A stretch of DNA of 34,865 nucleotides from Thermoplasmata archaeon (GTDB lineage: Archaea > Thermoplasmatota > Thermoplasmata > Lutacidiplasmatales > UBA184). Both the position numbers and the translations under genes were made by a program. Shown piece after piece: positions 18,480 to 28,709 of the stretch. Location: positions 1-34,865 of the forward strand of contig JASHPV010000093.1 of assembly GCA_030037875.1 (NCBI GenBank), in the 5' to 3' direction. Positions within the stretch are counted from its first letter, which is position 1. Every line of letters begins with the position of its first letter. The notes under the pieces were generated by a model. The model saw only the letters and a list, made by a program, of their open reading frames with translations, had not been told where the DNA came from and did not search any database.

Positions 18480-18552
18480 GCCACCGTAGCTCAGTTGGCA
18501 GAGCAGCTGATTCGTAATCAGCAGGTCGAGGGTTCAAGTCCCTCCGGTGGCT
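18480..18552 (+). tRNA. tRNA-Thr (anticodon CGT)
   Basis: Cloverleaf resolved by hand: GCCACCG/CGGTGGC acceptor, GCTC/GAGC D-stem, GCTGA-TTCGTAA-TCAGC anticodon arm, GAGGG-TTCAAGT-CCCTC T-arm; discriminator T, CCA not encoded. Confidence 0.95.
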
Positions 18553-18642
18553 GCTTTTCCTCGTTCCTGACTTATCGTCCTTGGAGCTGGAGCGTGCGCC
18601 TCAAGGGACTAGGACCCCAGCGGAAACAACCCCCCGTGTTCG
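18532..18642 (+). repeat. Repeat R0: tRNA-Thr 3' end plus about 90 bp of right arm, homologous to R1
   Basis: Ungapped hand alignment to 21667-21777: about 85/111 identical; homology begins abruptly at GTTC in the T-loop. Confidence 0.85.
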
Positions 18643-18854
18643 AAAGTGTCCGTTGGACGAAGCCTGAGCCATCTAGAAATTAACGTGCGGGTTTCGGGCG
18701 TGACCAAAGTCCTCATCCACCTCCCGGGCGCGCGTTTCAACGGAGACCTCTGGGATCTGACTGATCCGCTCTATTGAGGCACCGTCGCGTAGACGGGGTG
18801 GTTTCTCCGCAACATTTGATTTACGTTCAAGTATGCCTTCAAGCAGCATCGACC

Positions 18855-20636
18855 ATGTCGAAGCCCAGACTGGACCAACGCATCCAGTTCTGCGCAACCC
18901 GAGACGGGACCAGGATCGCGTGTGCCAAGACGGGCGAAGGTTACCCCATCGTTCGGGCCGCGCATTGGCTCACCCACCTAGAGTTCGACTTCGAAAGTCC
19001 GGTGTGGAATTATTGGATTCGGGAACTCTCCCGTTTCAATACGTACATCCGCTACGACGAGCGCGGATTCGGGCTGTCCGATTGGAACCCGACCGAGCTG
19101 AGCTTCGAGAGCTTCGTCAGCGACTTGGAGTCGGTGGTCGACTTCCTCGGCCTCCAGCGATTTGCCCTGCTAGGCGGTTCGCAAGGGGGCGCGGTTGGGA
19201 TAGCATATGCGGCCCGTCACCCAGAGCGCGTGAGCCACCTCATCCTGTACGCCTCCTTTGGAAGAGGCCTCAAAAAGATGGGGGGCCGGGAACAGGATCC
19301 CGGGGCGCTCGCGAGGTGGGAGTCCTTGACGCAAATGATCGAGCTGGGCTGGGGCCGGGAAAATCCCGCCTACCGTCAGCTGTTCACTTCTCTGTTCATG
19401 CCGGATGCGAACGCGGAGCAAGTGCGCTGGTTCAACGAACTCCAAAGGGTATCGTGCCCACCCAAGAACGCCGCCCGACTCCTCGAAATCCTCGCCGATA
19501 TTGACGTGGTCGATCTTCTTTCGAAAGTCTCTGTCCCCACCCTCGTCTTACATGCCCGCCACGACGAGGTGATCCCCTTCGAGGCGGGCCGAGGGTTAGC
19601 CGCTCGGATTCCGGGAGCCCGGTTCGTTCCCTTCGAGGGTCGGAATCACATTCTGCTTGAGTCAGATCCCGGGTGGGCTACATTCCTGCGTGAGATTCGT
19701 GAGTTTCTCGGTGTCGGAGTGGGAGGCGGCACGGAGGTCGTTCCGCTCGTCTCAGGGGAAGCCGGCGCTGAGCTGGCGTCTCAGCGTCTTCTAATTCAGA
19801 TGGAGGCGGTTCCTCTTTCAAGTTTTGCGATCGCCGGAAACTACGTTCGATACTCCTCCAACGTTCGCAGCGCTCTGAAGGACTGGAAACAGCGAGTCCT
19901 TGGGAGCTTGACCTCAGCCCGGCCAGGCATCGAGAACTACCTCATTTGGGGTTCACCGGGCAGCGGGAAGAGCTTCCTGATCCAAGAGGTAGCTCGATCG
20001 CAGGGCAACTCACTCCAGTTCGATGAAATCAACCTGGCGGAATGTGACGAGAGCAGTTTCGTCGCTCGGTTGCGAGAAGCGAGTGCGACAGATTGCCCAT
20101 GCCTTTGCTTGATTGACGAGGTCGACGCGAAGCCGGTCGACTCCTGGCCGTACGAACGGCTGCTCCCGTACCTAACTGGAAGCAACCGTCGGACGCCGCT
20201 GATCAATGTCCTCGCGGGAAGCTCAACGTCCGGCTTAGAAGAAATGAAGCAGCGAATCGCAGCTCGCCCGAAGGGCTCAGACCTCTTGAACCGCATTCCG
20301 GCGGACAACGAAATGGTGATCCCCGGTCTAGAGCCCGGGGATTCGGCTCTCGTCGTCCTGGCTCAATTGAAGCGGGCGGGAGCGAACCTCGGCCATCCCG
20401 TGCGCGAAGTCGAAAAGCTCGCGTTGTACTACATTCTCCTAAATCCGCGTCTTTCGAGTGCTCGGCAACTCGCCGAGTTCGCCCGCCAGTGCGTAGAGCG
20501 TCTTCCCCCGGCAGAGGACCGGGTGAAGTATGACCATCTCTTCCGCGCCGGAGATCCCGAGAACAAGGCGTTTTGGAACCGAGTCGAGCTCCAGCGCCCC
20601 GGCTTATCCGACGCTTTTGTCTCCATCAGTGATTGA
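18855..20636 (+). CDS. Alpha/beta hydrolase fused to a P-loop (AAA-like) ATPase domain
   Basis: N-terminal hydrolase: IRYDERGFGLSDW, LLGGSQGGAVGIAYAARHPERVSHLILYA (GxSxG), LVLHARHDEVIPFEAG, GRNHILLE. C-terminal ATPase: LIWGSPGSGKSFLIQEV (Walker A), CLCLIDEVDAKP (Walker B). ATG at 18855 preferred over the track TTG at 18774. Confidence 0.85.
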   Translation: MSKPRLDQRIQFCATRDGTRIACAKTGEGYPIVRAAHWLTHLEFDFESPVWNYWIRELSRFNTYIRYDERGFGLSDWNPTELSFESFVSDLESVVDFLGLQRFALLGGSQGGAVGIAYAARHPERVSHLILYASFGRGLKKMGGREQDPGALARWESLTQMIELGWGRENPAYRQLFTSLFMPDANAEQVRWFNELQRVSCPPKNAARLLEILADIDVVDLLSKVSVPTLVLHARHDEVIPFEAGRGLAARIPGARFVPFEGRNHILLESDPGWATFLREIREFLGVGVGGGTEVVPLVSGEAGAELASQRLLIQMEAVPLSSFAIAGNYVRYSSNVRSALKDWKQRVLGSLTSARPGIENYLIWGSPGSGKSFLIQEVARSQGNSLQFDEINLAECDESSFVARLREASATDCPCLCLIDEVDAKPVDSWPYERLLPYLTGSNRRTPLINVLAGSSTSGLEEMKQRIAARPKGSDLLNRIPADNEMVIPGLEPGDSALVVLAQLKRAGANLGHPVREVEKLALYYILLNPRLSSARQLAEFARQCVERLPPAEDRVKYDHLFRAGDPENKAFWNRVELQRPGLSDAFVSISD

Positions 20637-20858
20637 GGCCAAGGAACTCCTTCCCGATTCGCCCCTTCGAACGCGGCTCTCGCGTTAGGAACCCCCGCAT
20701 GCGGTCGAAGGGAGGGCCCCATAGAGGATTTCGTGCACACACCCCCGCGGGGGCAAGCCACGGGCTTTGGGTGACTAGAAGCGGGCGGAATCGGTTGATT
20801 GAATGGCCGAGACGGGCAATTCGTCAGTCGGGGAACGCGCTCTCCCCTAGGTGCATAG

Positions 20859-21350
20859 CTAGCGTGCGGGCGTCGAGTAGCTGTACCAACCTTGGAAGCC
20901 CACGGAGGCCGTATAGTTCGCCGAGGGGCCCATGGGAAATCCGGGGGCGCTAATCGACTGACTGATTGAGATCGTAAACGAATGGTTATCCGTCGTCCAA
21001 CCGCACGTTCCGAACGTGGCCGGACCCTCCCCGCACCCGACCAAGGTACCCCACGTTGCACTTGTCCCATTGGCCGCAAGAATCGACACTGCAACTCCCG
21101 GGCCGGTGGTGAGCCACCATCCGAATTCGAGGAGCGCTCCAATAGGTACTCCGGACTCCGTAAAGTTCTGCCAACTCACGATCGTCGACCAATTCACGAC
21201 CTTCGCAGTGATGAGGTGCTGGAATTCCACGACGTGGTCGATGGGAGCGTTGTAAATCCCGAGGAACGCAGCGCTCACGACCGCGAGGGCGACTCCGAGA
21301 GCGGCGACAACCGCAAGAAAGATCCGCAGATCGATCAGGATTCGCTTCAC
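20859..21350 (-). CDS. Hypothetical membrane-anchored/exported protein
   Basis: N-terminal TM (IFLAVVAALGVALAVVSAAFLGIY) followed by a Ser/Thr/Gly-rich extracellular-like domain. Confidence 0.6.
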   Translation of the reverse strand: MKRILIDLRIFLAVVAALGVALAVVSAAFLGIYNAPIDHVVEFQHLITAKVVNWSTIVSWQNFTESGVPIGALLEFGWWLTTGPGVAVSILAANGTSATWGTLVGCGEGPATFGTCGWTTDNHSFTISISQSISAPGFPMGPSANYTASVGFQGWYSYSTPAR

Positions 21351-21619
21351 AGTTCACCCTCCCGCGCTGCCAATTTCAGGCTAAGACCAAAGGTAGCTCT
21401 TCCGTCAAGGCGGCTGAACGCAGACGAATCACCTTCAGCGCTGACTGTCGCGACGGGTGCGGGACACTCCCAAGAGCGCTAGATGTTCCGCGCACCTCTG
21501 CCCGTCGGACAGCACGGCGGGACTAGGAGGTATGAGGGTCGTGAGGGAGGCGTCCGGGGTCCTTTGGCAGTAAACCACCCCTTCCCCACGTCGACTTCGC
21601 GCTGGCAACATCCCCGAGC

Positions 21620-21777
21620 GCAAGTAACGAAGGGAACGCAGACCGGCTCATGGACCCGAACCCTTAGTTCAAGTCCGTCCGGTGGGTGTTATTCCGCGCC
21701 CCTGCCTCATCCTCTCTGGCGCCGGAGGGTGCACCTGACCGGTCTGGGACCCCAGCCGGGACAACCCCCTGTGTTCT
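21620..21777 (+). repeat. Repeat R1: left arm + tRNA-Thr 3'-end core + right arm
   Basis: ggacccgaac-CCTTA-GTTCAAGTCC-gtccggtggg: dyad at 21652-21676. Right arm matches R0 (21667-21777), left arm matches R2 (21620-21666). Confidence 0.85.
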
Positions 21778-21929
21778 AAGGGTCCAACGTACCAAGCCTG
21801 TGCTATTTGGAAGTCAACGCCCGCGATTCGCGCATCACGAATATCCGGTCGGTTGAAGGCGTTCCTGAATGAAAAATTTGAATGAGATTCGACTGCCTCA
21901 GGGCACTGGAAGGTGGGACGGAAGCAGCA

Positions 21930-22502
21930 CTAGCGTCGGTGTCCCCGGGCGTGACGACCACGCCCCGCCCGGAGGACCCTATACTCGGACTTGACCAACC
22001 CTCGGGGAAACGCCTCGGTAGAAACGTGCCTCAGCCGAAGGTCATGAGGCAGCTCCCCGAAGAGAGGTACCCCTTGCCCAATCAGCACCGGGAATCGGTT
22101 GACGATGATCCTATCGATGAGCCCCGCCCTCAGAAAGGCTTGAATCGTCTTGCCGCCGTCGACATAGATGTGCCGAACCCCGCGCTTTTGGAGAAGAGCC
22201 ACCGCTTTCTCCGGTGAGCAGTTCAGCACCTCGCATTTCGCCGTCTTCGGGATTCTCACCCGGCTCGGCTTGTGAGATAGTACGATCACCGGCTTTTCGT
22301 AGGGCCAGCGCCCACCGGTCCGTCGCATCCAGCCGAGCACCCACTTGTAGGTCTTTCGTCCGATGACGCACGCGTCGATCGTCGCGATGAAGTCCTCGTA
22401 GCCGTTCGGATCCCCGCCGACGGTCGGAAGGAAGTCTAAGCTGCCGTTCTTTCGAGCGATGAAACCATCGAGGCTCGTCCCGACGAACACAGAGGCGCGC
22501 AT
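21930..22502 (-). CDS. Dihydrofolate reductase / RibD C-terminal family protein
   Basis: MRASVFVGTSLDGFIARKNGSLDFL...CVIGRKTYKWVLG...YEKPVIVLSHKPSR...VRHIYVDGGKTIQAFLRAGLIDRIIVNRFPVLIGQGVPLFGEL. Confidence 0.9.
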   Translation of the reverse strand: MRASVFVGTSLDGFIARKNGSLDFLPTVGGDPNGYEDFIATIDACVIGRKTYKWVLGWMRRTGGRWPYEKPVIVLSHKPSRVRIPKTAKCEVLNCSPEKAVALLQKRGVRHIYVDGGKTIQAFLRAGLIDRIIVNRFPVLIGQGVPLFGELPHDLRLRHVSTEAFPRGLVKSEYRVLRAGRGRHARGHRR

Positions 22503-22864
22503 GGAACGTGGAGAAGCAGGCGGCTAATGAACCCGTACCACTCGGACGAGGGCAGAATAGCGGCCTCAGACCTCCTTTCGTCGCTCCTTCGAAGGCGTCT
22601 GCGGAGCGGACCAACCTGACATGGATCTTCCGACGGCCGGGGCAGGAAAACACAGTTTCAGGATCCTCGGCCGCATCCGGTAGCCGAACGGGGTTCAGGA
22701 GGCTGCCGAGCGAACTCGCGTTCAAGGTTGTCGAGAACTCCGCACAGAGGACGGCGCTGTCCATATCGCTCGACTCGACGCCCCGTGTAGGCTCGGCGTT
22801 TGCCGGTGGGGGGATATACGCACCCCTTTCGCAGGTTGATTTTGGGCAGGCCACGTATCACAGT

Positions 22865-22934
22865 GCGAGTAAGGGAAGAGAAGCTGGCAGACACGCGGAC
22901 TTGAACCCTTAGTTCAGGTCCCTCCGGTGGCTGG
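22865..22934 (+). repeat. Repeat R2: left arm + tRNA-Thr 3'-end core
   Basis: GGACTTGAAC-CCTTA-GTTCAGGTCC (10-bp stem, one wobble; 22897-22921) followed by CTCCGGTGGCTGG. Left 47 nt align ungapped to R1 (about 31/47). Confidence 0.85.
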
Positions 22935-22975
22935 TCTTCAAGCCCCGGACCACTGTCGTAGCGCAGCGACCCCCG

Positions 22976-24223
22976 ATGCAGATCTCGAAAGAAACCGAGC
23001 GACGATTTGTGCTCGGCCTGCAGGGGCTTTGGCCAGGGCGCCGCTGGAGCGGCGTTCAGGGAGTACGCGATGCACTCCTTCAGTGTCGCCGTATCCAGGT
23101 AGACCCGCTCGACATCGTCGGACGGAACCACGACCTGGTGCTCGCGAGCCGGGTGGAAGGATATCGACCCGTGGACCTCGAAAGGGTGCTCTACGAGGAG
23201 CGAACAGCGTTCGAGCACGGCGGGAACCTGAACATCTACCCGCGAGAGCGGCTCGCCCTACAGTGGTCTTGGGTCTACCACGAAGGACTCCCGGTTCGAT
23301 GGGAGGAATGGGGACGCGCCCACTCCGCGACGGTCCGTCGCGTTCGAGGGAGGATCGACCGAGGTGGCCCTTCCGGAGCCGGCGACTGGGCCGGCGGCGA
23401 GCCGGTCGAAGAATATCGATCCCGTCGACTCGAAGGGTTGGCGCTCCATTACATGTGGCGCCGCTTCGACGTCATGATCCACCACCGCGAGGGGAACCGG
23501 AAATTCTACGACCGCACCGAGCGCCTGTTCGGACGCCTTCCGGCGCCGATCTCGAGAGAAGAGACCAGGGCCGACCTCGCGCTTGAGACGCTTGGATGGC
23601 TGGGGCTGTCTGGCCATGACGGAACCCAGTTCCTGAGGATTCAGGAGGAGGGCCGCGGCCGCTCCCGTCTCTCGAAACGGCAGCTTAGGGACGGCCTAAC
23701 GGCCTCGGGACGCCTGACGGAAGTCCTCGTGGAGGGCCATCACGAATCTTCGGTGCTCAGGACTGAGGACCTCCCGTTTCTCGAGACCGTCGCCCAAGGA
23801 GAGATACCGAGGTCCTGGCAGACCCACGCCACCGAGCCCGAGACAACGTTCCTAGCTCCGCTTGACGTCACCTCGGCGCACGGTCGTTCCGAAATGCTGT
23901 TCGGCTTCGAGAATCCTTTCGAAGTCTACAAGCCCCCGTCCCAACGTCGATGGGGCTACTACGTCCTGCCAGTGCTGTTAGGGGACCGACTCGTCGGTCG
24001 CATTGAGCCGGTTCGGGACAAAATCGCGCACTCCTTACGAATAAGCCGAGCCTGGTGGGAGAAGGGCGCGAGACCGGGCGAGATCGTCAAGCCATTCTCT
24101 CGCGGTCTCGATCGGTTCGCTCGCTACCTCGAAGCACCCAACGTTATATTGGGCGAGATCGGCTCGCCCCGGTTCCGGGACGCTGTGGCGAGGGAACTTC
24201 GCCGGCTTGCCAATGGATGTTAG
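22976..24223 (+). CDS. Winged-helix DNA-binding domain protein, YcaQ/HTH_42-like
   Basis: GLQGLWPGRRWSGVQGVRDALLQCRRIQVDPLDIVGRNHDLVLASRVEGYRPVDLERVLYEERTAFEHGGNLNIYPRERLALQW...HYMWRRFDVMIHHREGNRKFYDRTERL...VLPVLLGDRLVGRIEPVRD. Confidence 0.8.
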   Translation: MQISKETERRFVLGLQGLWPGRRWSGVQGVRDALLQCRRIQVDPLDIVGRNHDLVLASRVEGYRPVDLERVLYEERTAFEHGGNLNIYPRERLALQWSWVYHEGLPVRWEEWGRAHSATVRRVRGRIDRGGPSGAGDWAGGEPVEEYRSRRLEGLALHYMWRRFDVMIHHREGNRKFYDRTERLFGRLPAPISREETRADLALETLGWLGLSGHDGTQFLRIQEEGRGRSRLSKRQLRDGLTASGRLTEVLVEGHHESSVLRTEDLPFLETVAQGEIPRSWQTHATEPETTFLAPLDVTSAHGRSEMLFGFENPFEVYKPPSQRRWGYYVLPVLLGDRLVGRIEPVRDKIAHSLRISRAWWEKGARPGEIVKPFSRGLDRFARYLEAPNVILGEIGSPRFRDAVARELRRLANGC

Positions 24224-24385
24224 TGCGGTCCTTCCACAGGAGGCCTCCCGCCCCCAAGCGCTCGTGGTCGTTGTGAGTCTCGTGGCCGGAGTGATTCCCT
24301 CCGGATTCGGAACCATTGTATTGGCGGTAGGACTTGCCCGGTTGTCAAACAGCGAACCGCAACCCCTCGGCAGCAGGAGGAATCT

Positions 24386-25324
24386 GTGGAGAACCTTGGG
24401 TCGCCGAACAGAATGGGAGATTCCAACCCGACGAAACTTCCGAGATTTACCCCCCGGACCATCCCTCGACTGCTGAAGATCCGCCCCTACATCCTCAACT
24501 TCTGGGGGTTGGGCCTCCGATATTTGGTCAACGGTCGGAACCGCTCCGGGTACGACGTCAAGGTTGGCGGGGCCCGACCCCAGTCCCTGCACTGTTCAGA
24601 CCGGGCCGAGCTTGCCTTCGTCATCTACAGTGCCTACTTCGGCGTCACGCTCCTGCCCGACTCGGAGGTCGCTCCGCACGTCGAGCATCTTCTGGGTCGG
24701 TTTCGTTACATTCGGGAACGGTTGGAGAGCAAGTTTACGACTGATCAAATTCGGCTGTATTCCACGGGGGGATGGCCTGGATTCAAGGAAGCGGCCCTCT
24801 ATGCCTTGATTCGACGCGTTCGCCCCCTCGAAGTGATCGAAACCGGAGTGGGTCAAGGAATCTCCTCCACCTTCATTCTTGACGCGCTTCACGAGAACGG
24901 GAGAGGGCACCTGACATCCATCGACCTTCCCAACTTCGACCCGTCTGGGTACCGGTACGGGGACGGCACTGTAGACCGTGTGTTTGTACCGACTGAATTG
25001 GGCGCAGGGTGGCTCGTGCCGGAAGTTCTACGAAGCCGTTGGACCTTGCTCATCGGTCCGTCTCAGGACGTTCTCCCAACGCTGTCGATTCGACCCCAGG
25101 TGTTCCTCCACGATTCCATGCACACGTACGAGCACATGAAAATGGAGTTCGAGTGGGCCTGGAGTCGCCTCCCTATGGGGGGCCTCCTGGTTAGCGATGA
25201 CATCTCATGGAACAAGGCGTTCCCTGATTTTCTAGTGGCCCATGCGCCTGAGGCGGTACCTCTGTGCGTGGAAGAAGTCGGGGTGGCCCTCCGCGCAGTC
25301 CCTCCATCCGAGATCTCAGTGTAG
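24386..25324 (+). CDS. Class I SAM-dependent methyltransferase (Methyltransf_24/CmcI-like)
   Basis: RPLEVIETGVGQGISSTFILDALHENGRGHLTSIDLP...LLIGPSQDVLPTL...VFLHDSMHTYEHMKMEFEWAWSRLPMGGLLVSDDI. Confidence 0.75.
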   Translation: MENLGSPNRMGDSNPTKLPRFTPRTIPRLLKIRPYILNFWGLGLRYLVNGRNRSGYDVKVGGARPQSLHCSDRAELAFVIYSAYFGVTLLPDSEVAPHVEHLLGRFRYIRERLESKFTTDQIRLYSTGGWPGFKEAALYALIRRVRPLEVIETGVGQGISSTFILDALHENGRGHLTSIDLPNFDPSGYRYGDGTVDRVFVPTELGAGWLVPEVLRSRWTLLIGPSQDVLPTLSIRPQVFLHDSMHTYEHMKMEFEWAWSRLPMGGLLVSDDISWNKAFPDFLVAHAPEAVPLCVEEVGVALRAVPPSEISV

Positions 25325-25475
25325 GTCCGCTTCCCACTTGGCTGGCGGATGCGATTTGACCTTGCAAGCATCCGGTCGGGAGCGGGCATCGACCCCAAAG
25401 CTTCCCTTTTCCCACCTTGGCTTTGCACCGGCAAGGTCCTTTTGCGAACGGAGGGAGGGAAACACCGGCGGTCTT

Positions 25476-25515
25476 GGGAGCTCGAACTCTGGGTTCGACT
25501 CTCCCCGGTGGTTGG
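25476..25515 (+). repeat. Repeat R3: degenerate tRNA 3'-end/dyad copy
   Basis: GGGAGCTCGAAC-TCTGG-GTTCGACTCTCCC with a bulge, then CGGTGGTTGG. Confidence 0.7.
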
Positions 25516-25603
25516 CCCTTATGTGATGACGTGAGAGCTCGTTGGGTTGGTTGATCTATCTCCCACCCACTTGCTTTTGACCGAGCGGGCGGTTTCCATA
25601 GCC

Positions 25604-25960
25604 ATGAGTACGAACAAGACGATCGTCGAGAGATACATGGCAAGCACGGACCGCACGAAGGTCGGCCCCCTACTGGCCGACGATGTGGAGTGGATCGAGT
25701 GGGGCAATGGAGTCCCCCCAACCGGAGTGCGAACGCGAGGAAAGGCCGCGTTCATTCAGAATTTTGGGAACGATGAACTTCGGTCGGAGGTCAGCCGGAT
25801 GACCGAGCAAGGCAACGTGGTCGTTGTGGAGGGCACGGCTCACGTCCACAAGAAGGACGGCACCCACCTGTCCGTTCGGTTTTGCGACATCTTCGAGCTC
25901 GAGAGCGGCAAAGTGAAGCGGCTGAACTCGTTCGGGGCGCTGATCAAGGACTCCGCCTAA
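25604..25960 (+). CDS. SnoaL-like/NTF2-fold protein
   Basis: MSTNKTIVERYMASTDRTKVGPLLADDVEWIEWGNGVPPTGVRTRGKAAFIQNF...VVVEGTAHVHKKDGTHLSVRFCDIFELESGKVKRLNSF. Confidence 0.82.
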   Translation: MSTNKTIVERYMASTDRTKVGPLLADDVEWIEWGNGVPPTGVRTRGKAAFIQNFGNDELRSEVSRMTEQGNVVVVEGTAHVHKKDGTHLSVRFCDIFELESGKVKRLNSFGALIKDSA

Positions 25961-26063
25961 GCGAACCAAGGGAATGTCCGGGTCGATTGGCACCCAAGGG
26001 GAATCCCCGAAGCTACTCGTCGGGCACCGATGAGCCTAGGTTTCCCGTTTCGCGATGGCACCC

Positions 26064-26597
26064 CTATCTTGGAGGATTATCCTTGATCCGACCGACATCG
26101 TGCGCCCATCGGATCCAGTTGTAGATTGGCGCTTCGACGTCGATCTGCCAGAGGAGGGCATTCAGCTCGCCCAGGTGCTGGAGCTCCTCTTCGACCAAAT
26201 GCCATAGAACCTCACGGACCGGGATGTCGCAATCATGGTCCGACCCGGGGCCTTTCGGTCTGGCAATCGTACGATCTAAGTCGCTCTCCCGCAAGGCGGC
26301 CATGAACCGCCCGATGTGTGTCTGGAGGTACGTCTCGAACTCCTTCAGCTGCGCGACTGTAGGGGGATCACCGATTTCCGGCTCGGGAGGCGGGAATGCG
26401 TCCGGCGAGCAGTTCTTTATCCAGAAGTATAGCGCCCCCGAAGAATGCGCTAGGATGTCGACAAGCGACGGGTAGGACGCACCCCGGTCACGAGAGAGCT
26501 CCTGGGGTGGAAGCTTTGCGAATGTCTCCAGGTAGCCGCCGCGCGAGGCGGCAAGGTAGTCGAACCACTCCCGCAGCGTATCCAGCTCGGAGACCAT
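26064..26597 (-). CDS. DinB/DfsB-like superfamily protein
   Basis: REWFDYLAASRGGYLETFAKLPPQELSRDRGASYPSLVDILAHSSGALYFWIKN...REVLWHLVEEELQHLGELNALLWQ: four-helix, His-rich DinB pattern. Confidence 0.78.
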   Translation of the reverse strand: MVSELDTLREWFDYLAASRGGYLETFAKLPPQELSRDRGASYPSLVDILAHSSGALYFWIKNCSPDAFPPPEPEIGDPPTVAQLKEFETYLQTHIGRFMAALRESDLDRTIARPKGPGSDHDCDIPVREVLWHLVEEELQHLGELNALLWQIDVEAPIYNWIRWAHDVGRIKDNPPR

Positions 26598-26684
26598 GTC
26601 GATGCTCGGTCAGACTCTCATCGTAAAGAGGCCTTTCATGGAGGAGGGTGGAACGGGGTAGGACAGCCGGCATGCCTCAGCTGT

Positions 26685-26723
26685 GGGGAGTTGAACGGAG
26701 CGTTTACTCTCCTCCGGTGGCGG
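26685..26723 (+). repeat. Repeat R4: degenerate tRNA 3'-end/dyad copy
   Basis: GGGGAGTTGAAC-GGAGC-GTTTACTCTCC with a bulge like R3, then TCCGGTGGCGG. Confidence 0.68.
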
Positions 26724-26982
26724 CCAATTTTCGGGAGTCCCACGGCTCGCGATATGCCGCGCGGGTCGCTTCGCTCACAACTTCGGGGTCGTCGTTGGCA
26801 AGATCGCGTCCACTTTCAAAGCAGAACCAGAAACTGGGACCTGGGTTCCGGGTGGAAACCGCAGACTTGCTACATCGCCGTCGGCAAAGGTCACAGCTCA
26901 TGTAGGATGCCGGGAAGATTTGGTATACCGTTTCAACACCCCAAAGCCGGGTTAAGTTCCGCGATCGATCAGTCGTGGATCC

Positions 26983-27411
26983 ATGAAGCCTCGTGTGACC
27001 GTGCTTACGCTCGGAGTGGACGATCTGGACCGCGCGCTTCGATTTTACCGGGAGGGCCTAGGGCTGGATACGGAAGGAATAGTTGGCGCTGAACTCGAGC
27101 ACGGAGCGGTCGTGTTTTTTTCTTTGCAAGGAAATCTAATGCTCGCGCTCTATCCCCGGAAGGAAATCGCGTGGGATGCGAGGGTCGAGGCGCAGCCGAG
27201 GAGTTCGACGGAGTTCACCATCGGTCACAATGTCAACAGCAAAGAGGAAGTGAACGACGTGATGACCCAAGCTCGGGCGGCCGGCGCACAAATCGCGAAA
27301 CCCGCCGGGCCGACATTCTGGGGAGGCTACGCGGGTTATTTTCTCGACCCCGACGGACACCTGTGGGAAATCGCCTGGAACCCCGAACTCCGGGTCGAAG
27401 AGGGCCCGTAG
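26983..27411 (+). CDS. VOC (glyoxalase/bleomycin-resistance) family protein
   Basis: MKPRVTVLTLGVDDLDRALRFYREGLGLDTEGI...AGAQIAKPAGPTFWGGYAGYFLDPDGHLWEIAWNP. Confidence 0.92.
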   Translation: MKPRVTVLTLGVDDLDRALRFYREGLGLDTEGIVGAELEHGAVVFFSLQGNLMLALYPRKEIAWDARVEAQPRSSTEFTIGHNVNSKEEVNDVMTQARAAGAQIAKPAGPTFWGGYAGYFLDPDGHLWEIAWNPELRVEEGP

Positions 27412-27458
27412 GTCGGGACTCACAGGTCACCCCCGAGCGTCGAAGGTGGCTCTTCGCC

Positions 27459-27498
27459 GGGAGTTTGAACTGTTGCTTCGAAGCCCTCCGGTGATCGG
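27459..27498 (+). repeat. Repeat R5: most degenerate tRNA 3'-end/dyad copy
   Basis: GGGAGTTTGAAC-TGTTG-CTTCGAAGCCCTCCGGTGATCGG; same order of left arm, 5-nt spacer and CTCCGGTG tail. Confidence 0.58.
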
Positions 27499-27515
27499 CA
27501 AAATGGGGTCGCGGG

Positions 27516-28280
27516 TCATTCCCGCCACATGTTGTCGAGCACGATGACCGGATAAGAGCAAACTCGGGGCGCGGTGATGGCAAACAGGACCGCTTCCACG
27601 ACTTCGCGGTTCGTGAGCCGGCCATGCGCCGCTGGCTCCCGCACTTCGTTCCATTCCGGCGCCAAGGGGTCGGTGTCGTCAAAGTCGGGAGGGTAGATCG
27701 CGGACACGCGAATCCCGTGCTCTTTGAGCTCCATGCGCAGCTTGTCACTGAATCCGGACTGGGCGTGTTTCGCGGCGTGGAAGACCGCTGACGCCTCCCC
27801 CGAGCTTTGGCCGAGCAATGCCGCCGTAGAAACGACCGTGACGATGTCGGCCGCGGCCGATCGCCGCAGTGCCGGGAGAAGCTCCTTGGTCACCAGGACC
27901 GTTCCCGTAACGGCCGCCGCAAGGGTCTCGGCGATCGTAGCCTCCGTGAGGTCTTCGAGCCTCCCCGGGAGCCAAGGGGCGGCATTGTTGATCAGTACGT
28001 CGACGACCGGCGCGAGGGTCAACGTACGCCGGCACGCCTCTCGGATACTGTCGGCATCGGCGAGATCACATTGTGCGCTGGTGGGCTCCCGTCCCGTGCG
28101 CGTCTGGATGGCCGCGGCCACGAGAGCCAACCGAGATGAATCGCGGCCCCACAGAACGAGCTCAGCACCCAGATCCGCGGCAACAATGGCTAGCGCGCGC
28201 CCCAACCCGCGAGCGGCGCCGGTAATGACTATGCGTCGCCCCGAGAGAGCCTTGTCCCCCGGGCGGGGCGATCCAAACAT
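27516..28280 (-). CDS. Short-chain dehydrogenase/reductase
   Basis: RRIVITGAARGLGRALAIVAADLGAELVLWGRD (TGxxxGxG), INNAAPW, VVSTAALLGQSSGEASAVFHAAKHAQSGFSDKLRMEL (active-site region; Tyr not canonical). Confidence 0.88.
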   Translation of the reverse strand: MFGSPRPGDKALSGRRIVITGAARGLGRALAIVAADLGAELVLWGRDSSRLALVAAAIQTRTGREPTSAQCDLADADSIREACRRTLTLAPVVDVLINNAAPWLPGRLEDLTEATIAETLAAAVTGTVLVTKELLPALRRSAAADIVTVVSTAALLGQSSGEASAVFHAAKHAQSGFSDKLRMELKEHGIRVSAIYPPDFDDTDPLAPEWNEVREPAAHGRLTNREVVEAVLFAITAPRVCSYPVIVLDNMWRE

Positions 28281-28547
28281 TGCGGTCTGAAACGGGTTCT
28301 ATCATATCACGATAATCGCGACGTTCGGACGCGGGACCCAAGAGACCGGCGACTTTTCCCCCAGGGGCTTATCCTCCGGGCACGGTTTCCGAAACCTTCC
28401 CCCAGAAGAAACTACACGGGCATCCGGGCGAGGTTGCCACAGGGCGCGGGACGCCGTTCGGGAAGACGGATTTTTGGGCGTTTGGCGGTCCTTCCCCGAA
28501 GCAGCACGGTCCGGGCTCCTTTTAAGTTCCGGCAGGAGAACCGGGGC

Positions 28548-28709
28548 ATGTCCGCCTCTACGCCCTGGACGCCAGCGCCGCCACCGCCGACCTACGATCC
28601 AAACGCTCTGCTGCGACGGATCGACCAGACCACCACCCAGATCTTCCATTGGGTCAGGATTGGGGTCGTGGTGTTGATCGTACTCGTGCTGGTCAGCATT
28701 GTCTTCTGA
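28548..28709 (+). CDS. Small single-TM protein
   Basis: MSASTPWTPAPPPPTYDPNALLRRIDQTTTQIFHWVRIGVVVLIVLVLVSIVF; ctTTTTAAG-like TATA element upstream. Confidence 0.5.
   Translation: MSASTPWTPAPPPPTYDPNALLRRIDQTTTQIFHWVRIGVVVLIVLVLVSIVF

Follow-up and report, generated by a model that had tools for sequence, protein, structure and literature searches.

A tRNA-Thr gene and the cassettes behind it

The DNA analyzed here (the window) is a stretch of 34,865 nt in contig JASHPV010000093.1, from a peat-dwelling archaeon of the class Thermoplasmata. It contains a tRNA-Thr gene followed by a row of short sites with one or two genes between them, as listed below.

18480..18552, + strand: tRNA-Thr(CGT) gene (ARAGORN, Rfam), the anchor, with the core of repeat R0 at its 3' end (from 18532)
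18554..21688, + strand: cassette 1, which starts with a right arm of about 155 nt and has an alpha/beta hydrolase-AAA fusion gene (18855-20636, +) and an unclassified ORF (20859-21350, -); boundary uncertainty up to about 22 nt
21577..21648, + strand: left-arm module of R1, common to R2, the site at 25493 and three junctions in another genus
21649..21695, + strand: site R1, core at 21667 (52.9 bits)
21689..22933, + strand: cassette 2, with a RibD_C-family reductase gene (21930-22502, -)
22894..22940, + strand: site R2, core at 22912, the best-conserved site (63.1 bits)
22934..25514, + strand: cassette 3, with an AlkZ-like gene (22976-24223) and then a methyltransferase gene (24386-25324)
25475..25521, + strand: divergent site, core at 25493 (46.3-46.4 bits)
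25515..26723, + strand: interval with a SnoaL-like gene (25547-25960, +) and a DinB/MST-like gene (26064-26597, -)
26684..26730, + strand: divergent site, core at 26702 (41.4 bits)
26724..27497, + strand: cassette with a VOC/glyoxalase-like gene (26983-27411, +)
27458..27504, + strand: last recognised site, core at 27476 (45.3 bits)
27516..28280, - strand: distal flank, a gene for a short-chain dehydrogenase; a relative is found in genome G001, 3.5 kb downstream of the same tRNA

The order LonB-NadM-tRNA is retained in a sister species. The R0 core, which is the 3' end of tRNA-Thr(CGT), probably belongs to the native tRNA. The core pattern has only three copies in the source genome (at most two mismatches to the pattern used), and it has no matches on the reversed sequence.

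These repeats had been interpreted in a preliminary description as the ends of two tandem elements with common termini and different cargo, R1 being a composite junction with the left arm of R2 and the right arm of R0. The arm layout is confirmed. The ungapped left arms of R1 (21620-21666) and R2 (22865-22911) are identical at 31/47 positions, while about 20,000 random pairs from the window have a mean of 12.8 and a maximum of 27. With gaps, the match extends over about 98 nt with a score of 31.5; the best dinucleotide shuffle reaches 15 (n=1,000) and the best window pair 17.5 (n about 2,000). This left arm is absent from R0 (12/47 and 9/47 identical positions). The right arms of R0 and R1 align over about 155 nt with a score of 57.5 (shuffle maximum 20), and at R2 the alignment beyond the core region does not score above chance.

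The interpretation as two elements is only partly supported. Tandem units with different cargo are indeed found at the tRNA gene, and there is no recombinase inside them, as had been proposed. Nevertheless, the window contains at least five junctions (21667, 22912, 25493, 26702 and 27476). The last three were supported by a model of the site, all in the same strand, so R2 is not the outer end that it was taken to be: It begins the AlkZ cassette, which in G002 and G091 is a separate cassette bounded by sites. Cassette 3 is probably composed of two cassettes with a decayed inner site, judging from these separate AlkZ cassettes. The common termini are real as arms, but only some subsets of the cassettes have the long arms; what all of them have is a site of 40–47 nt. 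The limits suggested for the two units, 18532-21667 and 21667-22912, should be moved to nearer 18554-21688 and 21689-22933, since the boundaries lie inside the core, most likely towards the side of the tRNA 3' end.

Structure of the sites

Each site is formed by an inverted copy of the tRNA-Thr T-arm, GGGACTTGAAC, a spacer of the CCTTA type and a copy of the tRNA-Thr 3' end, GTTCAAGTCCCTCCGGTGGCTG. An ungapped alignment of 11 sites, with 47 columns, gives the consensus GGGGACTTGAAC CCTTA GTTCAGGTCCCTCCGGTGGCTG, where the position before GTGG is A or G. One gene, sometimes two, followed by a site is the usual layout of a cassette. For example, contig C33 of G002, a sister species, has six such sites with one or a few genes between them.

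The sites are found downstream of tRNA-Thr and in the same orientation in 15/15 site-bearing loci with an assembled tRNA-Thr, window included. The anchor is tRNA-Thr(CGT) in nine of these loci, the window among them, and tRNA-Thr(GGT) in the other six; tRNA-Thr(TGT) is a further anchor, in G002, G000 and G004. The acceptor end of the sites matches the tRNA of their own array in 19/19 scorable CGT sites and 8/8 GGT sites (Fisher 4.5e-7), and the inverted left half also follows the local T-arm (p 3.6e-4); these p-values are guides, since the sites of one array are not independent. The only other tRNA seen near a site-like sequence is tRNA-Cys: A lone hairpin in G005:C1 (L093 8349-8395, 35 bits) lies directly behind it, about 4 kb from xerA. 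This hairpin is probably a terminator-like look-alike, or else it could be a dif candidate.

The 30 nt hairpin of the site shows excess folding (mean z -2.9). In 44 sites, the left and right halves of the same site are more complementary than shuffled halves (P 4e-4), which is partly a difference between isoacceptor types. Covariation in the dyad was not above shuffles for the first 11 sites, and a polarity of site decay along the arrays was not found.

The limits of the cassettes can be mapped by comparing arrays. When two arrays share the upstream cassette, identity is high through the inverted arm and the core and falls at +22; when they share the downstream cassette, identity climbs at the same position (0.64 vs 0.34 background). 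In L084 and L085 even a degenerate core is common up to GGCTG, and no further. Both observations place the exchange inside the core, probably in the part nearer to the tRNA 3' end. A strand exchange within GGTGGCTG would fit this boundary.

The left arm of about 100 nt and the right arm of about 150 nt are accessory features of some cassettes. The left arm of R1 and R2 is found at six junctions, which belong to two genera and differ in cargo. Within the right arm is a box, GTTCGAAAGGGTCCGTC; with up to four mismatches it is present in 21/72 cassette starts or tRNA flanks (about 30%), compared with about 1.3% of random stretches. All these matches lie at +99 to +109, counted from the start of the core, and they occur in arrays of all three types (CGT, GGT and TGT). 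Excess folding of the arms was not found (left arm mean z -0.20). Since the left arm has no excess structure and the pairing motif does not hold in general, we have dropped a tRNA-like fold of the whole cassette end. The mismatches of the left arm, 16/31 of which are in one phase, had also raised the suspicion that it codes for protein; this was rejected, as no such pattern is seen in the right arm and the ORF has no family match.

Distribution and exchange of cassettes

Arrays behind tRNA-Thr genes (CGT, GGT or TGT) are found in one Thermoplasmata family, in two of its genera. All genomes compared are fragmentary MAGs. A covariance model of the site has matches at E<=1e-3 in 23/103 genomes of the family; some of these genomes have one weak match, and in a few the match is just a tRNA 3' end. 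When 400 genomes were sampled evenly across the class, every match at E<=1e-5 fell in the same two genera, and no arrays were detected among about 300 sampled genomes outside the family. A 16 nt pattern of the dyad centre has one match outside the family, a number expected by chance. An exact-pattern scan of 85,462 species genomes gives matches only in Thermoplasmata MAGs with JOPF names. The JOPF MAGs come from a study of oil-palm peat in Jambi, Indonesia (PMC10250450). We found no earlier description of such arrays in the open-access literature searched, which is no proof of absence.

Whole intervals from site to site are found again in other arrays, also in another genus and with their order swapped, so similarly bounded elements are indeed present in related genomes, as the preliminary description had expected. 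G002 and G100 share a GNAT cassette, with 94.0% identity over 800 bp, and a PIN cassette, with 82.5% identity; the two genomes belong to different genera and have these cassettes in swapped order. The LonB-NadM flanking DNA is only about 72–76% identical between these genera. For the AlkZ cassette, G002 has 91.2% identity to G091 and 85% to the window; the VOC cassette of the window has 82% DNA identity to a cassette of G002 with other neighbours, and other recurring pairs reach 88–90%. A relative of the DinB gene is present in the G099 array. The ends of shared blocks lie at most 60 bp from a site in 33/70 cases, with 4.6 expected (P<2e-4); among the remaining ends, several coincide with decayed sites.

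Two cases show arrays with different contents behind the same tRNA. The SnoaL gene of G004 is found directly behind tRNA-Thr(CGT), while in the window the related sequence follows the site at 25493; the stretch 18553-25492 is therefore extra DNA at the tRNA end. The tRNA-Thr(TGT) locus has no cassette in G000:C53 and contains one in G000:C161 (2.3 kb) and G004:C125 (1.4 kb), with closely similar flanks. The two contigs of G000 (L134, which is C161, and L135, which is C53) have near-identical upstream flanks; the two versions in this MAG may be two gene copies or a strain mixture. Relatives of the RibD_C gene in G003 and G002 were dropped as a case of cassette movement, which they do not demonstrate, since there is no recognisable site at their positions.

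The cargo of the window (ABH-AAA, RibD_C, AlkZ, methyltransferase, SnoaL, DinB, VOC) is joined in other arrays by GNAT, PIN, VOC, NUDIX, beta-lactamase-fold, HxlR and cyclase-TPR proteins. The last of these are related proteins of about 640 amino acids which combine an adenylate/guanylate-cyclase domain with TPR repeats. They recur as cargo in L077, L078, L081, L084, L133 and L134, often in the cassette adjoining the tRNA. The protein encoded at 18855-20636 of the window joins an alpha/beta hydrolase to an AAA-type ATPase domain; its C-terminal half is 42–48% identical to parts of open frames of 470–990 amino acids in G011, G016 and G023, relatives at the level of genera. A small ORF at 28544-28684 of the window, coding for a membrane protein of about 50 amino acids, was left unannotated in the ORF lists at the cut-offs used. 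Its DNA is 74–85% identical to copies in G004 (L014 5535-5675) and G002 (L060 16260-16458).

Origin of the arrays

We consider it quite probable that these are arrays of mobile gene cassettes, anchored at tRNA-Thr genes, which grow by site-specific insertion catalysed by a recombinase in trans. The cassettes would exist as excised circles, although no circular cassettes were seen. They would insert by site-specific recombination within the tRNA-3'-end segment, either of the tRNA itself or of a resident site. The tRNA would remain intact upon each insertion because every cassette ends in a copy of its 3' end.

No recombinase genes within or near the arrays were found on the array contigs. A tyrosine recombinase would act in trans; as candidates there are XerA, which is nearly universal, and a clade of integrases with a patchy distribution. 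XerA is listed for most array genomes, and no other tyrosine recombinase is common to all the well-covered ones. The second clade is found in G000, G002, G106, G113, G114 and G118, not in all array genomes. One of its genes (L133 4630-5250, in G002:C2) lies just 5' of tRNA-Thr(TGT), with a cassette on the 3' side of this tRNA. It was not accepted as the enzyme of the arrays, since its position is not conserved in G000.

A version of the same explanation names the enzyme: Host XerA would mobilise the modules at dif-like sites. It is the sole strong tyrosine recombinase listed for G086, G090 and G100, and the sites have two inverted arms of about 11 bp around a short spacer, which is the plan behind archaeal dif prediction (PMC2958812). 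On the other hand, XerA is equally present in relatives which have no arrays, and the mapped boundary lies beside the dyad and not at its centre, so we regard this version as rather doubtful.

Ordinary homologous recombination between repeated tRNA-3'-end and arm sequences would require no site-specific recombinase at all. The occupied tRNA-Thr(TGT) loci carry repeats of about 170 nt, core plus right arm, on both sides, and the 5' arms of about 150 nt in about 30% of the cassettes are long enough for some exchange. Nevertheless, most sites have only 40–47 imperfect nucleotides in common, the adjoining cassettes of the pair with 94% identity differ entirely, and the inverted T-arm is left unexplained, which makes this process an unlikely origin. 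Larger integrative elements or proviruses, inserted serially at tRNA-Thr and each eroded to one or two genes, are also improbable. Integration often targets tRNA genes, and archaea are known to have tandem integrations (PMC8371274), but clean cassettes from site to site recur intact in different genera and orders, and no viral structural, replication or integrase families were found in 42 array proteins scanned against PHROGs.

The arrays at tRNA-Thr resemble the tRNA-integrated archaeal elements of tyrosine integrases, reviewed in the same paper, in several features: a tRNA target, an insert which duplicates or restores the tRNA 3' end, and tandem insertion. They differ in their small units (0.7–5.8 kb, with one or two genes and no integrase of their own), in the presence of up to six sites in a row and in the inverted T-arm which they carry. 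The pdif modules of Acinetobacter, with XerCD/dif sites and described mainly on plasmids (PMC7885321, PMC12907356), are also small gene modules between short dyad recombination sites, have no recombinase of their own and are moved in trans. In contrast, the sites described here are derived from tRNA, have one orientation, and are chromosomal and anchored to a tRNA gene.

In behaviour the arrays are like integrons. A CALIN is by definition an array with no IntI nearby, and attC sites have two pairs of boxes (RYYYAAC...GTTRRRY), usually spanning more than 55 nt. Cassettes are in both cases mostly single-gene, with one site each in one orientation, they are reordered and exchanged between lineages, and PIN, GNAT, VOC and small enzymes are common cargo. 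A canonical integron or CALIN, with IntI inserting cassettes at attC sites, is nonetheless very improbable even though archaeal ones exist (PMC9668308): No integron integrase (TIGR02249) passes the cut-off in the 15 array genomes, which are incomplete MAGs, the anchor is a tRNA-Thr gene in place of an attI platform beside IntI, the site copies the tRNA-Thr T-arm and 3' end in 40–47 nt with a single dyad and a 5 nt spacer, and the boundary as mapped differs from the G|TT position. The weak TIGR02249 matches are of the XerA type and lack the IntI-specific segment. The left GAAC and right GTTC of the sites, compared by eye with the consensus, only partly resemble the attC boxes.

In summary, the array behaves like an integron and sits like a tRNA-integrated element, and it fails the integron-defining features we have tested. 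The array itself, its sites and the exchange of cassettes from site to site are observed, and the circles and the recombinase are inferred. Tentatively, it may be a gene-capture system of independent origin, functionally equivalent to the integron, with a tRNA gene as its platform and a recombinase acting in trans, possibly host XerA. With the 47 nt site model one can find arrays that are likely to escape searches for integron integrases and attC sites. The finding also makes a question testable: whether a host or trans-acting recombinase can build integron-like arrays at tRNA genes. In these archaea, genes are collected in the style of cassettes, reordered and exchanged across genera with none of the integron parts tested, and tRNA genes serve as the platforms.
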